Part shown: positions 44,601-48,402 of the stretch, piece by piece | Numbering within the stretch: the first letter of the stretch is position 1 | Layout of the letters: every line of letters starts with the position of its first letter | NCBI RefSeq assembly: GCF_000737325.1 | Contig: NZ_CP011125.1 | Coordinates: 8,432,001 to 8,496,000, forward strand | From: Sandaracinus amylolyticus | Lineage (GTDB): Bacteria > Myxococcota_A > Polyangia > Polyangiales > Sandaracinaceae | DNA: 64,000 nucleotides | Reading direction: 5' to 3' | Notes under the pieces: model-generated | Databases searched by the model: none | What the model saw: only the letters and a program-made list of their open reading frames with translations | What the model was told of the DNA's origin: nothing | Translations under genes and position numbers: made by a program

Positions 44601-45224
44601 TTCGATCGTCACGCGCAGGAGCGCGCCCTCGGCCCAGCGCTGCTCGATCACGCGCGCGGTGCCGGGGCCCTCGAGGCGCGCGGTGCCTGCGCGCGCGTCC
44701 ATCGGCTCGTCGAACCGCACCTCGATCGCGCCGAGCCGCGCCGACACGCCGGTGTCGCCGACGACGGGCTCGCTCGCGATCACGCGAGGCGCTGCGGCGT
44801 CGCCCACCTCGAACACGACGAGCACCGGCTCGCGCAGCGGGTTGCCCGCGCGGTCCTCGAAGTCGTCGGCGATGCGCACCTGCACGCGCGCGCGAGAAGG
44901 AAGAGCCTCGACCGGCTCGATCGAGAGGACGCGGCGCGCGTCGTCCCAGTGCAGCGGCTCGAGCGCCACCGCGGTTCCGTCGGCGGTCACGGTCACGCCG
45001 CCGCCCTCGGCGATCGGCTCGCTGAACGTGACGTCGATCCACTCGTCGGGCGGCACGTCGGCGCTGCCGCTCGCGGGTGACGTGCTCACGACGTACGGGC
45101 GCAGCTCGTCGGGTGGCGCGTCGCCTCCCGCGTCCACCCGAAGGACGGGCTCGCGCGTGCCGTCGCACGCGGCGAGCGCCAGCGCGAGCAGGACGATGAG
45201 CCCCGTACCGGATCGGGATCGCAT
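41619..45224 (-). CDS. Big_5 multidomain lipoprotein (paralogue E, first gene of operon)
   Basis: A 1201-residue lipoprotein. MRSRSGTGLIVLLALALAAC gives lipobox LAAC. The same plan as paralogues C and D applies: four Big_5 domains (STSPASGSADVPPDEW; SEPVVGDTGVSARL; ASPAEGQVNVATLT; STPVEGARNVRASI), PPC-like modules (WLDVGPGEYFVWVATAAAG) and a propeller-like C-terminus ending GNFVRLD. It is the most diverged of the three. GAGGAG lies upstream of the ATG. Immediately upstream is the 40-bp element shared, in inverse orientation, with the ECF sigma gene. Confidence 0.88.
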   Translation of the reverse strand: MRSRSGTGLIVLLALALAACDGTREPVLRVDAGGDAPPDELRPYVVSTSPASGSADVPPDEWIDVTFSEPIAEGGGVTVTADGTAVALEPLHWDDARRVLSIEPVEALPSRARVQVRIADDFEDRAGNPLREPVLVVFEVGDAAAPRVIASEPVVGDTGVSARLGAIEVRFDEPMDARAGTARLEGPGTARVIEQRWAEGALLRVTIEGLSHESAYRLVLDGFTDAAGRALDTTAYLDEGAITFTTGPDADAPRVVDASPAEGQVNVATLTREIVVAFDEPMDVTRRAARLDVPGTEMWLTGTWSEDSRTITFGAAGHLAPSGAHALDLTALRDVAGNALDPVTYLEDGALDFATGADGRPPTVVSSTPVEGARNVRASIEEIVVRFDRAMDRDATATVRVDDGVAPIDVPARWNLAGTELHLDVRARLYAERAHRVDLRAQRDLFGTALDVAGVYLGGDGELDFTTANGSGESCTDALSIASATPVAGGGHEWRLAARAVTSREGEGAGAQCATRPDWISPDAVVRVVKTTPAASQGGTYLHVTATSAASRLVVLEVRSSCAPSREPIDPARLDCPGERATWESWLDVGPGEYFVWVATAAAGTLAAFEGATIRVDEVAAVPEGESCADPYDASSVIHTVGAGGEHVYTIPASAGRASDRTVVAYDGAGTMQCDPERVQGGDVVIALPKASSTSVLSAVVQGEVDVELLDRCDARATGARSLACAAADISGRLRAELTTRGPAGTHYAWMAATKPYLGMAGATLRVREIEPQAGDDCAHAIRIAPSGTTTISATRPERLDVPGCFPTTGGITWYRFTAAEAATVIDASGPGAIAVVAPGALEARSCTTDTSGPALGAFATPGSDVCIAISSSAGIGSLTLTPVPYDGVMGRVTPLGIAPPARATGGLESMESEVWIAVTPTTIHAAVQWPARILSVPRAGHVRADSHELEEFELGYSGVAVGEALFSLDDAGFYDLGLGTIVGPADQTRLYRVVTPGGTFTTREPFDWDGPARLGSQVYRSVAYDGAELWLLVDSPAALGGGGSAGPITLYRASPSAPGVVRVAGVLSTMQRAIATAVDATYVYLLGRVGGAGGVYRVRRDALGDDPIPELVAPANVPETMPRGSIELDSVVAAQTLYFRDAQGDLRVVTGLGTSTPIDLGVLSPLGDADDHQLTYDALGRSIFLFESETDARGNFVRLD

Positions 45225-45241
45225 GAAGCGGTCGTCTCCTC

Positions 45242-45281
45242 GGCCGGGGTTGTGTGAAAACGATCATCGAATGGCTCACGC
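45242..45281 (-). promoter_or_regulatory. 40-bp promoter-like element of the lipoprotein operon
   Basis: Read on the minus strand it starts GCGTGAGCCATTCG and later has TCACACA and CCCGGC. It matches the plus-strand element at 45401-45440 at 30 of 40 positions without a gap. The first 14 bases are identical. It lies 17 bp upstream of the first lipoprotein ATG. It is either an ECF-type promoter or a regulator site. Confidence 0.7.
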
Positions 45282-45342
45282 GCTCGTCGCTTTTCGATCG
45301 CGCGCATCGGGGCGAGTGCGCGCGAGTGCCGTCCAGGGCGCG

Positions 45343-45364
45343 GTGTGCATCCGATTCCGCACAC
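45343..45364. promoter_or_regulatory. inverted repeat between divergent promoter elements
   Basis: GTGTGC and GCACAC are perfect 6-bp arms separated by 10 bp, near the centre of the divergent region. It may be a regulator site acting on both units, but short arms make chance possible. Confidence 0.35.
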
Positions 45365-45400
45365 TGCCGACACCGTCGTTCGGTCAGGAAATGCGATCGG

Positions 45401-45440
45401 GCGTGAGCCATTCGCCCTTCGCCATCACACACACCCGGCA
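45401..45440 (+). promoter_or_regulatory. 40-bp promoter-like element of the ECF sigma operon
   Basis: GCGTGAGCCATTCG, then TCG, TCACACA and CCCGGC at the same spacing as in the element at 45242-45281 (30/40 identities). It runs right up to the A of the ATG of the sigma gene, leaving no room for a ribosome-binding site. The transcript may therefore be leaderless, or the true start may be further in. Confidence 0.7.
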
Positions 45441-46033
45441 TGAGCTCCGACGCGCGGGCGCACCTGCGATTGATCGGCTCGCCTCCCGACGACGAGGGGG
45501 ACGAGCCGCACGGCGACGACGCCGATCCGTCGCAGCTCCGCGCGCCGATCGATCTCGACTCGGCGTTCCGTCTCCACGGGGGCTACGTGCTCCGGGTCGC
45601 CATGCGGATCCTCGGTCGCAGCTCGGAGCTCGACGACATCGTGCAGGACGTCTTCCTCGACGCGGTGCGCGGCATCGATCGCCTGCGCGATCCCGACGCC
45701 GCGCGCGCGTGGCTCGCGACGCTCACGGTGCGCAAGGCGCGCCTGGTGCTGCGCAAGCGCTACGCGCTCACGATCTTCGGGCTCAACGAGGAGCTCGATC
45801 AGGCGGCGCTCGCCGACGAGCGCGCGTCGCCGGAGCAGCGCACGCGCATCGCGGATCTCTACCGCGTGCTCGGGTCGCTGCCGACGGAAGAACGCCTCGC
45901 GTGGACCCTGCGCCACCTCGAAGGCGAGCCCCTCGAGCGCGTCGCGCTCGCGTGCGAGTGCTCGCTCGCGACGGTGAAGAGACGCATCGCCGCCGCCCAC
46001 GCGGTCCTGGAAGCGGAGCTCGCCGATGAGTAA
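45440..46033 (+). CDS. ECF-type RNA polymerase sigma factor
   Basis: A 197-residue sigma-70 family protein with regions 2 and 4 only. Region 2 (about 40-110) includes YVLRVAMRILGRSSELDDIVQDVFLDAVRGI, the core-binding and -10 recognition helices. Region 4 (about 138-190) has SLPTEERLAWTLRHLEG and the helix-turn-helix ERVALACECSLATVKRRIAAA for -35 recognition. The 40-residue acidic N-terminus precedes region 2 and is not conserved in ECF factors. It overlaps the FecR gene by 8 bp. Two copies of a 40-bp element, one before this gene and one before the lipoprotein operon, suggest autoregulation and control of that operon. Confidence 0.93.
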   Translation: MSSDARAHLRLIGSPPDDEGDEPHGDDADPSQLRAPIDLDSAFRLHGGYVLRVAMRILGRSSELDDIVQDVFLDAVRGIDRLRDPDAARAWLATLTVRKARLVLRKRYALTIFGLNEELDQAALADERASPEQRTRIADLYRVLGSLPTEERLAWTLRHLEGEPLERVALACECSLATVKRRIAAAHAVLEAELADE

Positions 46034-47351
46034 AGGCCACCGTCTCCGAGATGCGATCGCCGACGTGCGCGAGCACGTCGCGCCGGAGTGGGATCGCGCG
46101 CGCGCGAGCCGCGCCGCCCAGCGCGCGGCCGCGCGTGGCCGCCGTCGCGTGGTGCGGCGCACGATCGGATCGGCGATCGCGATCGCCGCGATGATCGCGA
46201 TCGGCTTCGTCGCGCGCCCGACGGCGACGACGCCCGCGACGGGCACGCCCGACCCCGAGGTCTCGACGATCGCGACGCCGAGCGTCCTGCGCCTCGCCGA
46301 CGGATCGATCGTGACGCCGCTCGATGCCGACAGCGAGGTCTTCGTCGGGCGCATGACGCCCGGCGAGATCGAGCTCGTGCTGGTGCGCGGCGCGGCGCGC
46401 TTCGAGGTCACGCCGGGCCTGCCGCGCGTGTTCCGCGTGCGCGCAGGCACCGTCGCGGTGTCGGTGATCGGCACGGTGTTCACGGTGCGGCGCGAGGGCA
46501 GCGGCGCCGCGGTCGAGGTCGATCAGGGGCGCGTACGCGTCGAGTGGGAGCCCGGCGCGCGCATCGAGCTCGGCGCGGGCGAGCGCGGCGCGTTCCCGAC
46601 CGCAGCGGCCGCAGAGCTCGAGCCGAGCCCGACGATCGTGCCCGCAGCGGTCGCGCGACAGACGGTCGCGCCGCGCTCGGTCGCGGAGGAAACCGTCGCG
46701 CCCGAGACGATCGCGCCCGAGACGGTCGTGCCCGAGACGATCGCGCGCCAGACGATCGCGAGCGATTCGATCGCGCGCGAGACGATCGACCGCGTGCGCG
46801 ATCGACGCGACGCCCCGGCGCGCGCCGCCGAGCCCGCGGCGGTCGCGCCGCCCGAGGTGGTCGAGCCCGCCACGCCCGAGCCCGACGCGCGTCCCGCGTG
46901 GCGCGCCCACGCCGAGCAGGGTCGCTACGACGAGGGCTACGCGCTGCTGCTCCTCGATCCCACGGTGCTGCGTGGCGATGACGTCGACACCCTCATCGTC
47001 GCCGCAGACTGCGCGCGGCTCTCGGGCCATCCCGCCGAAGCGCTCGCGTACCTGCGACGGGCCCTCGACGTCGGTCGCGACGATGCGCGCGCCCCGGTCG
47101 TCGCCTTCACGCTCGGTCGCGTGCTGCTCCAGCAGCTCGGCCGACCCGCCGACGCCGCGGACGCGTTCGAGCAGACGCGCAGTCTCGCCCCCGAGGGGAC
47201 CCTCGCGCAGGACGCGCTCGCGCGCGAGGTCGAGGCTTGTCACCGCGCCGGGCTGCACGATCGAGCACGCGCGCGCGCTCTCGACTATCTTCGCCTCTAT
47301 CCCGAGGATCTCCGCACCGACGCCGTCCGCCGGCTCGGCGGTCTCGAGTGA
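46026..47351 (+). CDS. FecR-domain TPR protein, putative anti-sigma factor/sensor
   Basis: A 441-residue protein with one TM helix (47-63, SAIAIAAMIAIGFVA). Residues 1-45 are the cytoplasmic basic segment that would hold the sigma factor. Residues 85-190 form a FecR domain (LRLADGSIVTPLDADSEV, GAARFEVTPG, VIGTVFTVRR). Residues 208-256 are ten pentads of the type T-I/V-A-x-x. The C-terminal 150 residues hold TPR-like helices (AEQGRYDEGYALL; GHPAEALAYLRRAL; RPADAADAFEQTR). It overlaps sigma by 8 bp, the usual sigma/FecR layout, but the periplasmic TPR region is typical of Myxococcota versions. Confidence 0.9.
   Translation: MSKGHRLRDAIADVREHVAPEWDRARASRAAQRAAARGRRRVVRRTIGSAIAIAAMIAIGFVARPTATTPATGTPDPEVSTIATPSVLRLADGSIVTPLDADSEVFVGRMTPGEIELVLVRGAARFEVTPGLPRVFRVRAGTVAVSVIGTVFTVRREGSGAAVEVDQGRVRVEWEPGARIELGAGERGAFPTAAAAELEPSPTIVPAAVARQTVAPRSVAEETVAPETIAPETVVPETIARQTIASDSIARETIDRVRDRRDAPARAAEPAAVAPPEVVEPATPEPDARPAWRAHAEQGRYDEGYALLLLDPTVLRGDDVDTLIVAADCARLSGHPAEALAYLRRALDVGRDDARAPVVAFTLGRVLLQQLGRPADAADAFEQTRSLAPEGTLAQDALAREVEACHRAGLHDRARARALDYLRLYPEDLRTDAVRRLGGLE
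46647..46793 (+). repeat. 15-bp coding repeats (pentapeptides) in the FecR gene
   Basis: About ten units of 15 bp encode TVAPR, SVAEE, TVAPE, TIAPE, TVVPE, TIARQ, TIASD, SIARE, TIDRV and the preceding AVARQ. The repeating [TS][VI]Axx pattern recalls pentapeptide-repeat folds but lacks the central Leu. It forms a rod or linker between the FecR and TPR domains. Confidence 0.75.
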
Positions 47352-48402
47352 TCGCGCGCGGCGCGTCGTCGCCGCGCTGCTGCTGAGCATCGCGCCGTGC
47401 GTGGCGCGCGCGCAGGACGGCGCGGTCGAGCACCCACGGGTCGCGATCGCGATCGATCCCTCGTGCGCGGAGCTCGACGCCGAGCTCGTCGCGCACGTGC
47501 TCCAGATCGAGCTCGGCGCGGACGCGGAGCTCGCGCGCTCGGACGTCGAGGCGACGAGCCGCGCGCGCGTGTCGTGCGAGGGCACGTCGGTCGCGGTCGA
47601 CGTCGACGACGGGCTCACGCGCAAGCGCCTGCAGCGCACCTTCGATCTCGCGAGCGCGCCTCCGGCGGTGCGCGCGCGCCTCGTCGCGCTCGCGATCGCC
47701 GAGCTGCTCGGTGCGGCGTGGGTCGAGCTCGGCATGCGCCACGACGCCGAGCTCGATGCGGTGCGACCCGCGCCCGAAGGAAGCGAAGAAGCGCGCGCCG
47801 CCGCGCTCGACGCCGCGCGCGATCGCCTGGTCGAAGAGACCGCGCCCGGCGACCTCGAGGCCCCGACGACCGAGCCCATCGGCGCGCGTCCGCTCGGCAT
47901 CCACGTGCTCGGCGCGCTACGCGTCTCGGGCGAGCCACTGCACGTCGCAGGCGGCGCCGGGCTCGGGCTCGACGTCGAGCTCTACGCGCCGCTCGCCATC
48001 GTGCTCGACGCGCGCGCGGAGCACGGCCGTGTCGAAGCCGGCGCGCTCGGCTCGGTCGGCGTGACGACGGCGTGGCTCGGCGCGCTCCTCGCGCTGCGCC
48101 TGCCGTTCGGCCTCGACCACGCGGACTTCGGCGTGGGCGCGCGCGGCGGCGTCGCGATCCTCGAAGGGCGCGCATCGTCGGGCGCAAGCGCGGACACGAT
48201 CGTCGGCGGCACGCTCGCGGTGATCAGCGCAGCGCACCTCTCGCTGCACGTCGTCGGCTCCGCGTACCTGCACGTCGGCGTCGAGCTCGGATGGATCGCG
48301 GTGCCGGTGCGCGGGACGCTCGCGCCGACCGGCGAGACCATCGCGGGCATCGCGGGCGCGCTCGGCGTGCTGACGCTCGGCGTCGAGATCAGGCCCGAGT
48401 GA
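47348..48402 (+). CDS. putative outer-membrane beta-barrel protein with frame-start problem
   Basis: From about 47377 on, the reading frame (codons beginning at 47377, 47380...) encodes a signal peptide core (RRVVAALLLSIAPCVARAQ), then a domain about 140 long and a C-terminal beta-barrel-like part with alternating strands (LAVISAAHLSLHVVGSAYL, VELGWIAVPVRG) ending LGVEIRPE. It follows the FecR gene, as OMPs often do. However, this frame has no ATG, GTG or TTG in its upstream 300 bases. A GTG at 47348 overlapping the FecR stop (GTGA) is in a different frame that stops after 12 codons. One missing base between 47352 and 47376 would join them. Confidence 0.65.

Follow-up and report, generated by a model that had tools for sequence, protein, structure and literature searches.

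Conserved paired elements of one putative promoter type between an ECF sigma factor operon and a Big_5 lipoprotein operon in Sandaracinus amylolyticus

Self-activating units composed of an extracytoplasmic function (ECF) sigma factor and its anti-sigma factor are well known. In the Bacteroidetes, units with SusC/SusD encode the ECF factor, a FecR-type protein, an outer-membrane barrel, and a lipoprotein together. About 55% of ECF factors are predicted to be autoregulated, with FecI-like systems given as exceptions, and the classical ECF promoter boxes are AAC and CGT (PMC8103513). Here we describe a variant of the autoregulated kind in a 64-kb stretch of the S. amylolyticus genome (contig NZ_CP011125.1, positions 8,432,001 to 8,496,000; referred to as the window), in which near-identical sequence elements precede both the gene for an ECF sigma factor (P0001) and a divergently transcribed lipoprotein gene (P0003). 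At the level of sequence comparison, we show that the elements are two conserved, putative promoters of one type, with a lipoprotein as the recurrent partner; the local ECF factor likely reads both promoters and thereby activates itself.

The two 39-nucleotide (nt) elements are separated by 119 nt and lie in opposite orientation between the left-running and right-running operons, and they align without gaps at 30 of 39 positions (45243-45281 on the minus strand with 45401-45439 on the plus strand). An earlier note on this DNA, made by reading the sequence, had described near-identical head-to-head elements before both divergent units, with 30 of 40 positions identical; the layout and the 30 gapless identities hold, but the length is 39 rather than 40. 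The alignment also bears out the block of 14 identical bases described there, GCGTGAGCCATTCG (14/14), as well as the TCG, TCACACA, and CCCGGC motifs that fall in register beyond it. Both elements are bipartite, with TGAGCC as the -35, a 15-nt spacer, and TCACAC as the -10; the sigma gene element runs up to its ATG (45440), and the other stops 18 nt short of the ATG at 45224. In 150 dinucleotide shuffles of positions 45225-45439, counting only non-overlapping arms, the best pair reached 26 of 39 identities and no exact 14-mer pair arose. A whole-genome scan, which the earlier note had suggested, finds exact matches to GCGTGAGCCATTCG in the 10.33-Mb genome only in these two elements, and the same two sites are the only perfect matches to GTGAGCC-N15-TCACACA. 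The three matches with a single mismatch in this genome all fall within coding frames or at their beginnings, and we do not claim a wider regulon from an excess of matches with one or two mismatches. A search for a sigma-70-type promoter in positions 45200-45460 found none.

The orthologous locus in the second genome of the genus, whose sigma factor is 94% identical, retains both elements, with the differences in the left element falling mostly in the spacer. In that genome too, exact matches to GCGTGAGCCATTCG and perfect matches to GTGAGCC-N15-TCACACA are confined to the two orthologous sites. We note that the interval between the elements (45282-45400) is likewise well conserved in the second species, and it may conceal further control sites.

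Relatives of P0001 were gathered from its own genome (38 matches), from 56 related genomes, and by a scan of named genomes, with part of the locus set collected by a region-4.2 helix pattern. Of all 6-mers, TGAGCC shows by far the strongest enrichment in front of the genes of closer relatives, being present at 57 of 71 loci where 5.4 are expected; upstream of distant ECF genes (<35% identity), it is present at 3 of 44. In the 57 TGAGCC-anchored sites, the hexamer is followed by a G, by T-rich bases, and then by a second block at +22 to +26 with up to 1.0 bit of information, a position that corresponds to -35/-10 promoter spacing. When a weight matrix was built from 52 sites, leaving out the locus itself, its ortholog, and the two closest paralogs, it ranked the two elements first and second on both strands of the window, with scores of 19.3 and 18.9. 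The third-best match (34283, minus strand) lies inside the start of another lipoprotein gene (ATG at about 34348, minus strand); because it falls within a coding start, we treated it as a chance match, and it is probably a coincidence. A bipartite promoter-type element upstream of the sigma gene is general in the clade, as predicted for autoregulated ECF factors. One further ECF locus of the same genome (L225; genome positions 2016724, 2019486, and 2026040, plus strand) seemingly has three sites in which the spacer is longer by one base (TGAGCCGGTC...GCGCAC/GTCAC/GTCAC). We found no description of a TGAGCC ECF promoter in the searchable literature, where a Pseudomonas paper was the single match and which did not include the 2021 ECF classification, where a group number and perhaps the motif may be given.

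The positions of start codons are informative as to where transcription may begin. Counted from the T of TGAGCC, the start codons of lipoprotein targets cluster at +35 to +37 (13 of 27), and those of P0001 and both of its closest paralogs are at +36. Transcription starting at +35 to +37 would put TGAGCC at position -35 and the second block near -13 to -9. For the sigma operon, the predicted start is at or adjoining the ATG at 45440, and the sigma mRNA is probably leaderless; for the lipoprotein operon, the predicted start is at about 45243, which would provide a leader of about 20 nt containing GAGGAG.

The association with lipoproteins extends well beyond this locus. When 67 ECF loci were scanned for extra sites away from the sigma gene, a second site was present in about 25 others, nearly always directly before a lipoprotein gene. 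All 18 second sites that score at least 15 and have a plausible downstream open reading frame (ORF) precede a gene with a lipobox signal (Fisher P = 4e-13), as do 26 of 29 scoring at least 13 (Fisher P = 4e-15); among background ORFs of the same loci, 19% have such a signal. The targets are of varied kinds, including Big_5, DUF1800, the DUF1592/1588/1595/1585/1587 set, RCC1, FG-GAP, Kazal, MopE-like, and others of unknown type. Three loci (L145, L154, and L242) have lipoprotein targets of the same promoter type with DUF1800 or the DUF1592/1588/1595/1585/1587 set, which are domains of unknown function. Two paralogous loci of the genus again have a Big_5 lipoprotein as the target, but downstream of the sigma operon and with its own site, and a locus from another family of the order (L044) has the same divergent ECF/Big_5 lipoprotein layout as here, with the -10 sequence GCACTACG in both promoters. 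Neither the recurrent lipoprotein target nor a fixed -35 with a locus-specific -10 was found described in the searchable literature.

Although the -35 is shared, the -10 sequences are specific to each locus and co-vary between the paired sites. In 23 loci with two sites, the -10 regions match within a locus at 142 of 207 positions, compared with 82 by permutation (z = 8.3; 0 of 20,000 permutations). The effect lies in columns +21 to +26, with little in the bases after the -35 (z = 1.2) or in the spacer (z = 2.7). It is also seen in the 16 loci left after removing near relatives and close-set divergent pairs, which give 76 identities of 96 where 45 are expected (z = 6.9); because the loci share descent, these permutation values overstate the certainty. 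For L044, the sigma site entered in the 23-locus statistic is a TGAGCC in the coding start, and the true site matches its partner better, so that the statistic is, if anything, low. Because part of the locus set was gathered by the helix pattern, the region 4.2 helix was judged only on the 27 loci not selected by that motif; in these, SLAT and KR are invariant and regions 2.3-2.4 are more variable, which fits with a common -35 and a local -10. As the paired -10s co-vary by locus, we infer that the two promoters of a locus are both read by its own sigma factor. These comparisons support the proposals in the earlier note that the two elements are a shared sigma factor promoter, since the same -35 and spacing precede related ECF genes across the Myxococcota and a matrix made without this locus ranks the two elements at the top, and that the adjacent ECF factor is the likely reader, since paired sites elsewhere share a locus-specific -10.

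We therefore regard it as very probable that the adjacent ECF factor reads both elements, activating its own operon and the two-gene Big_5 lipoprotein operon. Several points weigh against this interpretation. Many paralogous ECF factors of this genome share the -35, and the closest paralog (66% identity) carries a similar -10, GGACACAAC, such that cross-recognition by this paralog is possible. The sigma gene site is below the scan threshold in five loci that have a lipoprotein site, and part of the co-variation could stem from the subclades to which the loci belong, and not from strict one-to-one recognition. In addition, the lipobox rule was adjusted once during the work, though it was applied equally to the background.

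The best-surviving alternative is that both elements are ECF-type promoters whose main reader is a paralogous ECF factor, such as the 66%-identical one encoded at genome position 7217770, with several units forming one shared regulon. The -35 common to all would allow this, as would the closeness of the -10 in the paralog's own promoter to TCACACAAC; nonetheless, the locus-by-locus co-variation of paired -10s, and the occurrence of the perfect -35/-10 combination at only these two sites in the genome, make it improbable. Less probable still is that the elements are not sigma promoters but operators, bound by a repressor or activator protein and present in duplicate before two regulated genes. 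A divergent intergenic region holding two near-identical copies would suit operators as well, but neither element is symmetric, each having two distinct conserved blocks spaced as in a promoter; a start codon is often found at +35 to +37, and throughout the clade the motif goes with ECF genes. That the likeness reflects a recent, functionless local duplication, as the run of 14 identical bases might suggest, is scarcely credible given that the second species keeps both copies while spacer bases have changed and that a matrix from unrelated loci recognizes both elements.

The scheme we favor, with the adjacent ECF factor as the reader of both promoters, builds on what computation provides directly (the elements with their promoter architecture and conservation, the co-varying -10s of paired sites, and the lipoprotein target that recurs) and infers from it recognition by P0001, anti-sigma action of P0002, leaderless translation, where the lipoproteins are located, and the signal. 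A membrane anti-sigma factor, the FecR-domain protein, would hold the ECF factor inactive until an envelope signal frees it. RNA polymerase with the freed sigma factor would then fire the right-hand promoter, giving positive autoregulation of the sigma factor, the anti-sigma factor, and the outer-membrane barrel, and the left-hand promoter, giving two large Big_5 lipoproteins. The TGAGCC -35 is shared throughout a clade of myxobacterial ECF factors, and the TCACAC -10 would be the address specific to this unit.

The flanking genes are listed in Table 1. P0001 matches Pfam Sigma70_r2 (residues 43-107) and Sigma70_r4_2 (residues 139-186), joined by a short linker with no region 3 reported, the composition of an ECF (group IV) sigma factor. 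The P0002 gene overlaps that of P0001 by 8 nt, and its product has a FecR domain (PF04773, E = 8e-12) and, as read from the sequence, a single hydrophobic stretch after about 45 residues; a Pfam search gave no match to an anti-sigma N-terminal domain, and its position and FecR domain make it a plausible anti-sigma factor. The third gene of the operon matches no Pfam family. In the predicted structure of its product (mean pLDDT, 81), an alpha/beta N-terminal domain is joined to an eight-stranded barrel with no plug that resembles OmpW (Z = 18.3; root mean square deviation, 2.9; 169 residues) and also OmpA. Many related ECF loci have a homolog of this gene after those for the sigma factor and the FecR protein. 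On the other side, P0003 and P0004 each have an N-terminal signal with a lipobox ahead of their four Big_5 stretches, and probably share one operon. A search of a plasmid collection for relatives of P0003 found none.

Table 1. Coordinates of genes and predicted control elements within the window
Feature	Position	Strand	Description
Second Big_5 lipoprotein, P0004	37989..41609	-	Four Big_5 stretches; starts 9 nt after P0003
Target lipoprotein, P0003	41619..45224	-	Four Big_5 Ig-like stretches
GAGGAG, ribosome-binding-like sequence	45236..45241	-	11 nt before ATG 45224; read from sequence
Predicted lipoprotein-operon promoter element	45243..45281	-	-35 TGAGCC 45278-45273; -10 TCACAC 45257-45252
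Predicted sigma-operon promoter element	45401..45439	+	-35 TGAGCC 45404-45409; -10 TCACAC 45425-45430
ECF sigma factor, P0001	45440..46033	+	Sigma-70 regions 2 and 4
Probable anti-sigma factor, P0002	46026..47351	+	One hydrophobic stretch, FecR domain, TPR-like C terminus
Third gene of sigma operon	47341..48402	+	N-terminal alpha/beta domain and 8-stranded OmpW/OmpA-like outer-membrane barrel; GTG 47341 start inferred

The same predicted wiring, with changing switch sequences, recurs at many places in myxobacterial genomes. There is perhaps an even chance that these loci constitute a large, undescribed family of envelope modules, each made up of an ECF factor, an anti-sigma factor of the FecR/TPR type, a small barrel in the outer membrane, and its own dedicated lipoprotein with freely exchanged domains, in which one -35 is combined with a -10 that co-evolves with its own sigma factor such that many parallel units in one genome are insulated; the barrel may have a part in displaying or sensing the lipoprotein. 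Myxobacterial genomes carry dozens of ECF factors whose target is unknown, and the combination of a shared -35, a locus-specific -10, and a neighboring lipoprotein offers a testable target for many of them together. The parallel sigma-promoter pairs are also a natural set for reading the rules of -10 specificity, and the constant tie to a lipoprotein whose domains vary suggests a general mode of control for envelope lipoproteins.

Relative to the Bacteroidetes ECF/FecR units with SusC/SusD, the barrel and lipoproteins here belong to other families (Big_5, DUF1800, RCC1, FG-GAP, Kazal, and others). The locus resembles FecI/FecR/FecA in having a FecR-domain protein beside the ECF factor together with an outer-membrane barrel, but we rejected identity with that system because the third gene models as a plugless eight-stranded barrel of no Pfam family; the barrel is OmpW/OmpA-like rather than a TonB-dependent transducer. 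Furthermore, the sigma operon appears to be autoregulated, whereas FecI-like factors are exceptions (PMC8103513). In its apparent autoregulation, reported for about 55% of ECF factors, the locus resembles the autoregulated ECF/membrane anti-sigma units (PMC8103513). It departs from the classical members in having a TGAGCC -35 and a TCACAC -10 instead of AAC and CGT (PMC8103513), a FecR-TPR anti-sigma candidate, and, as its apparent target, one lipoprotein operon.
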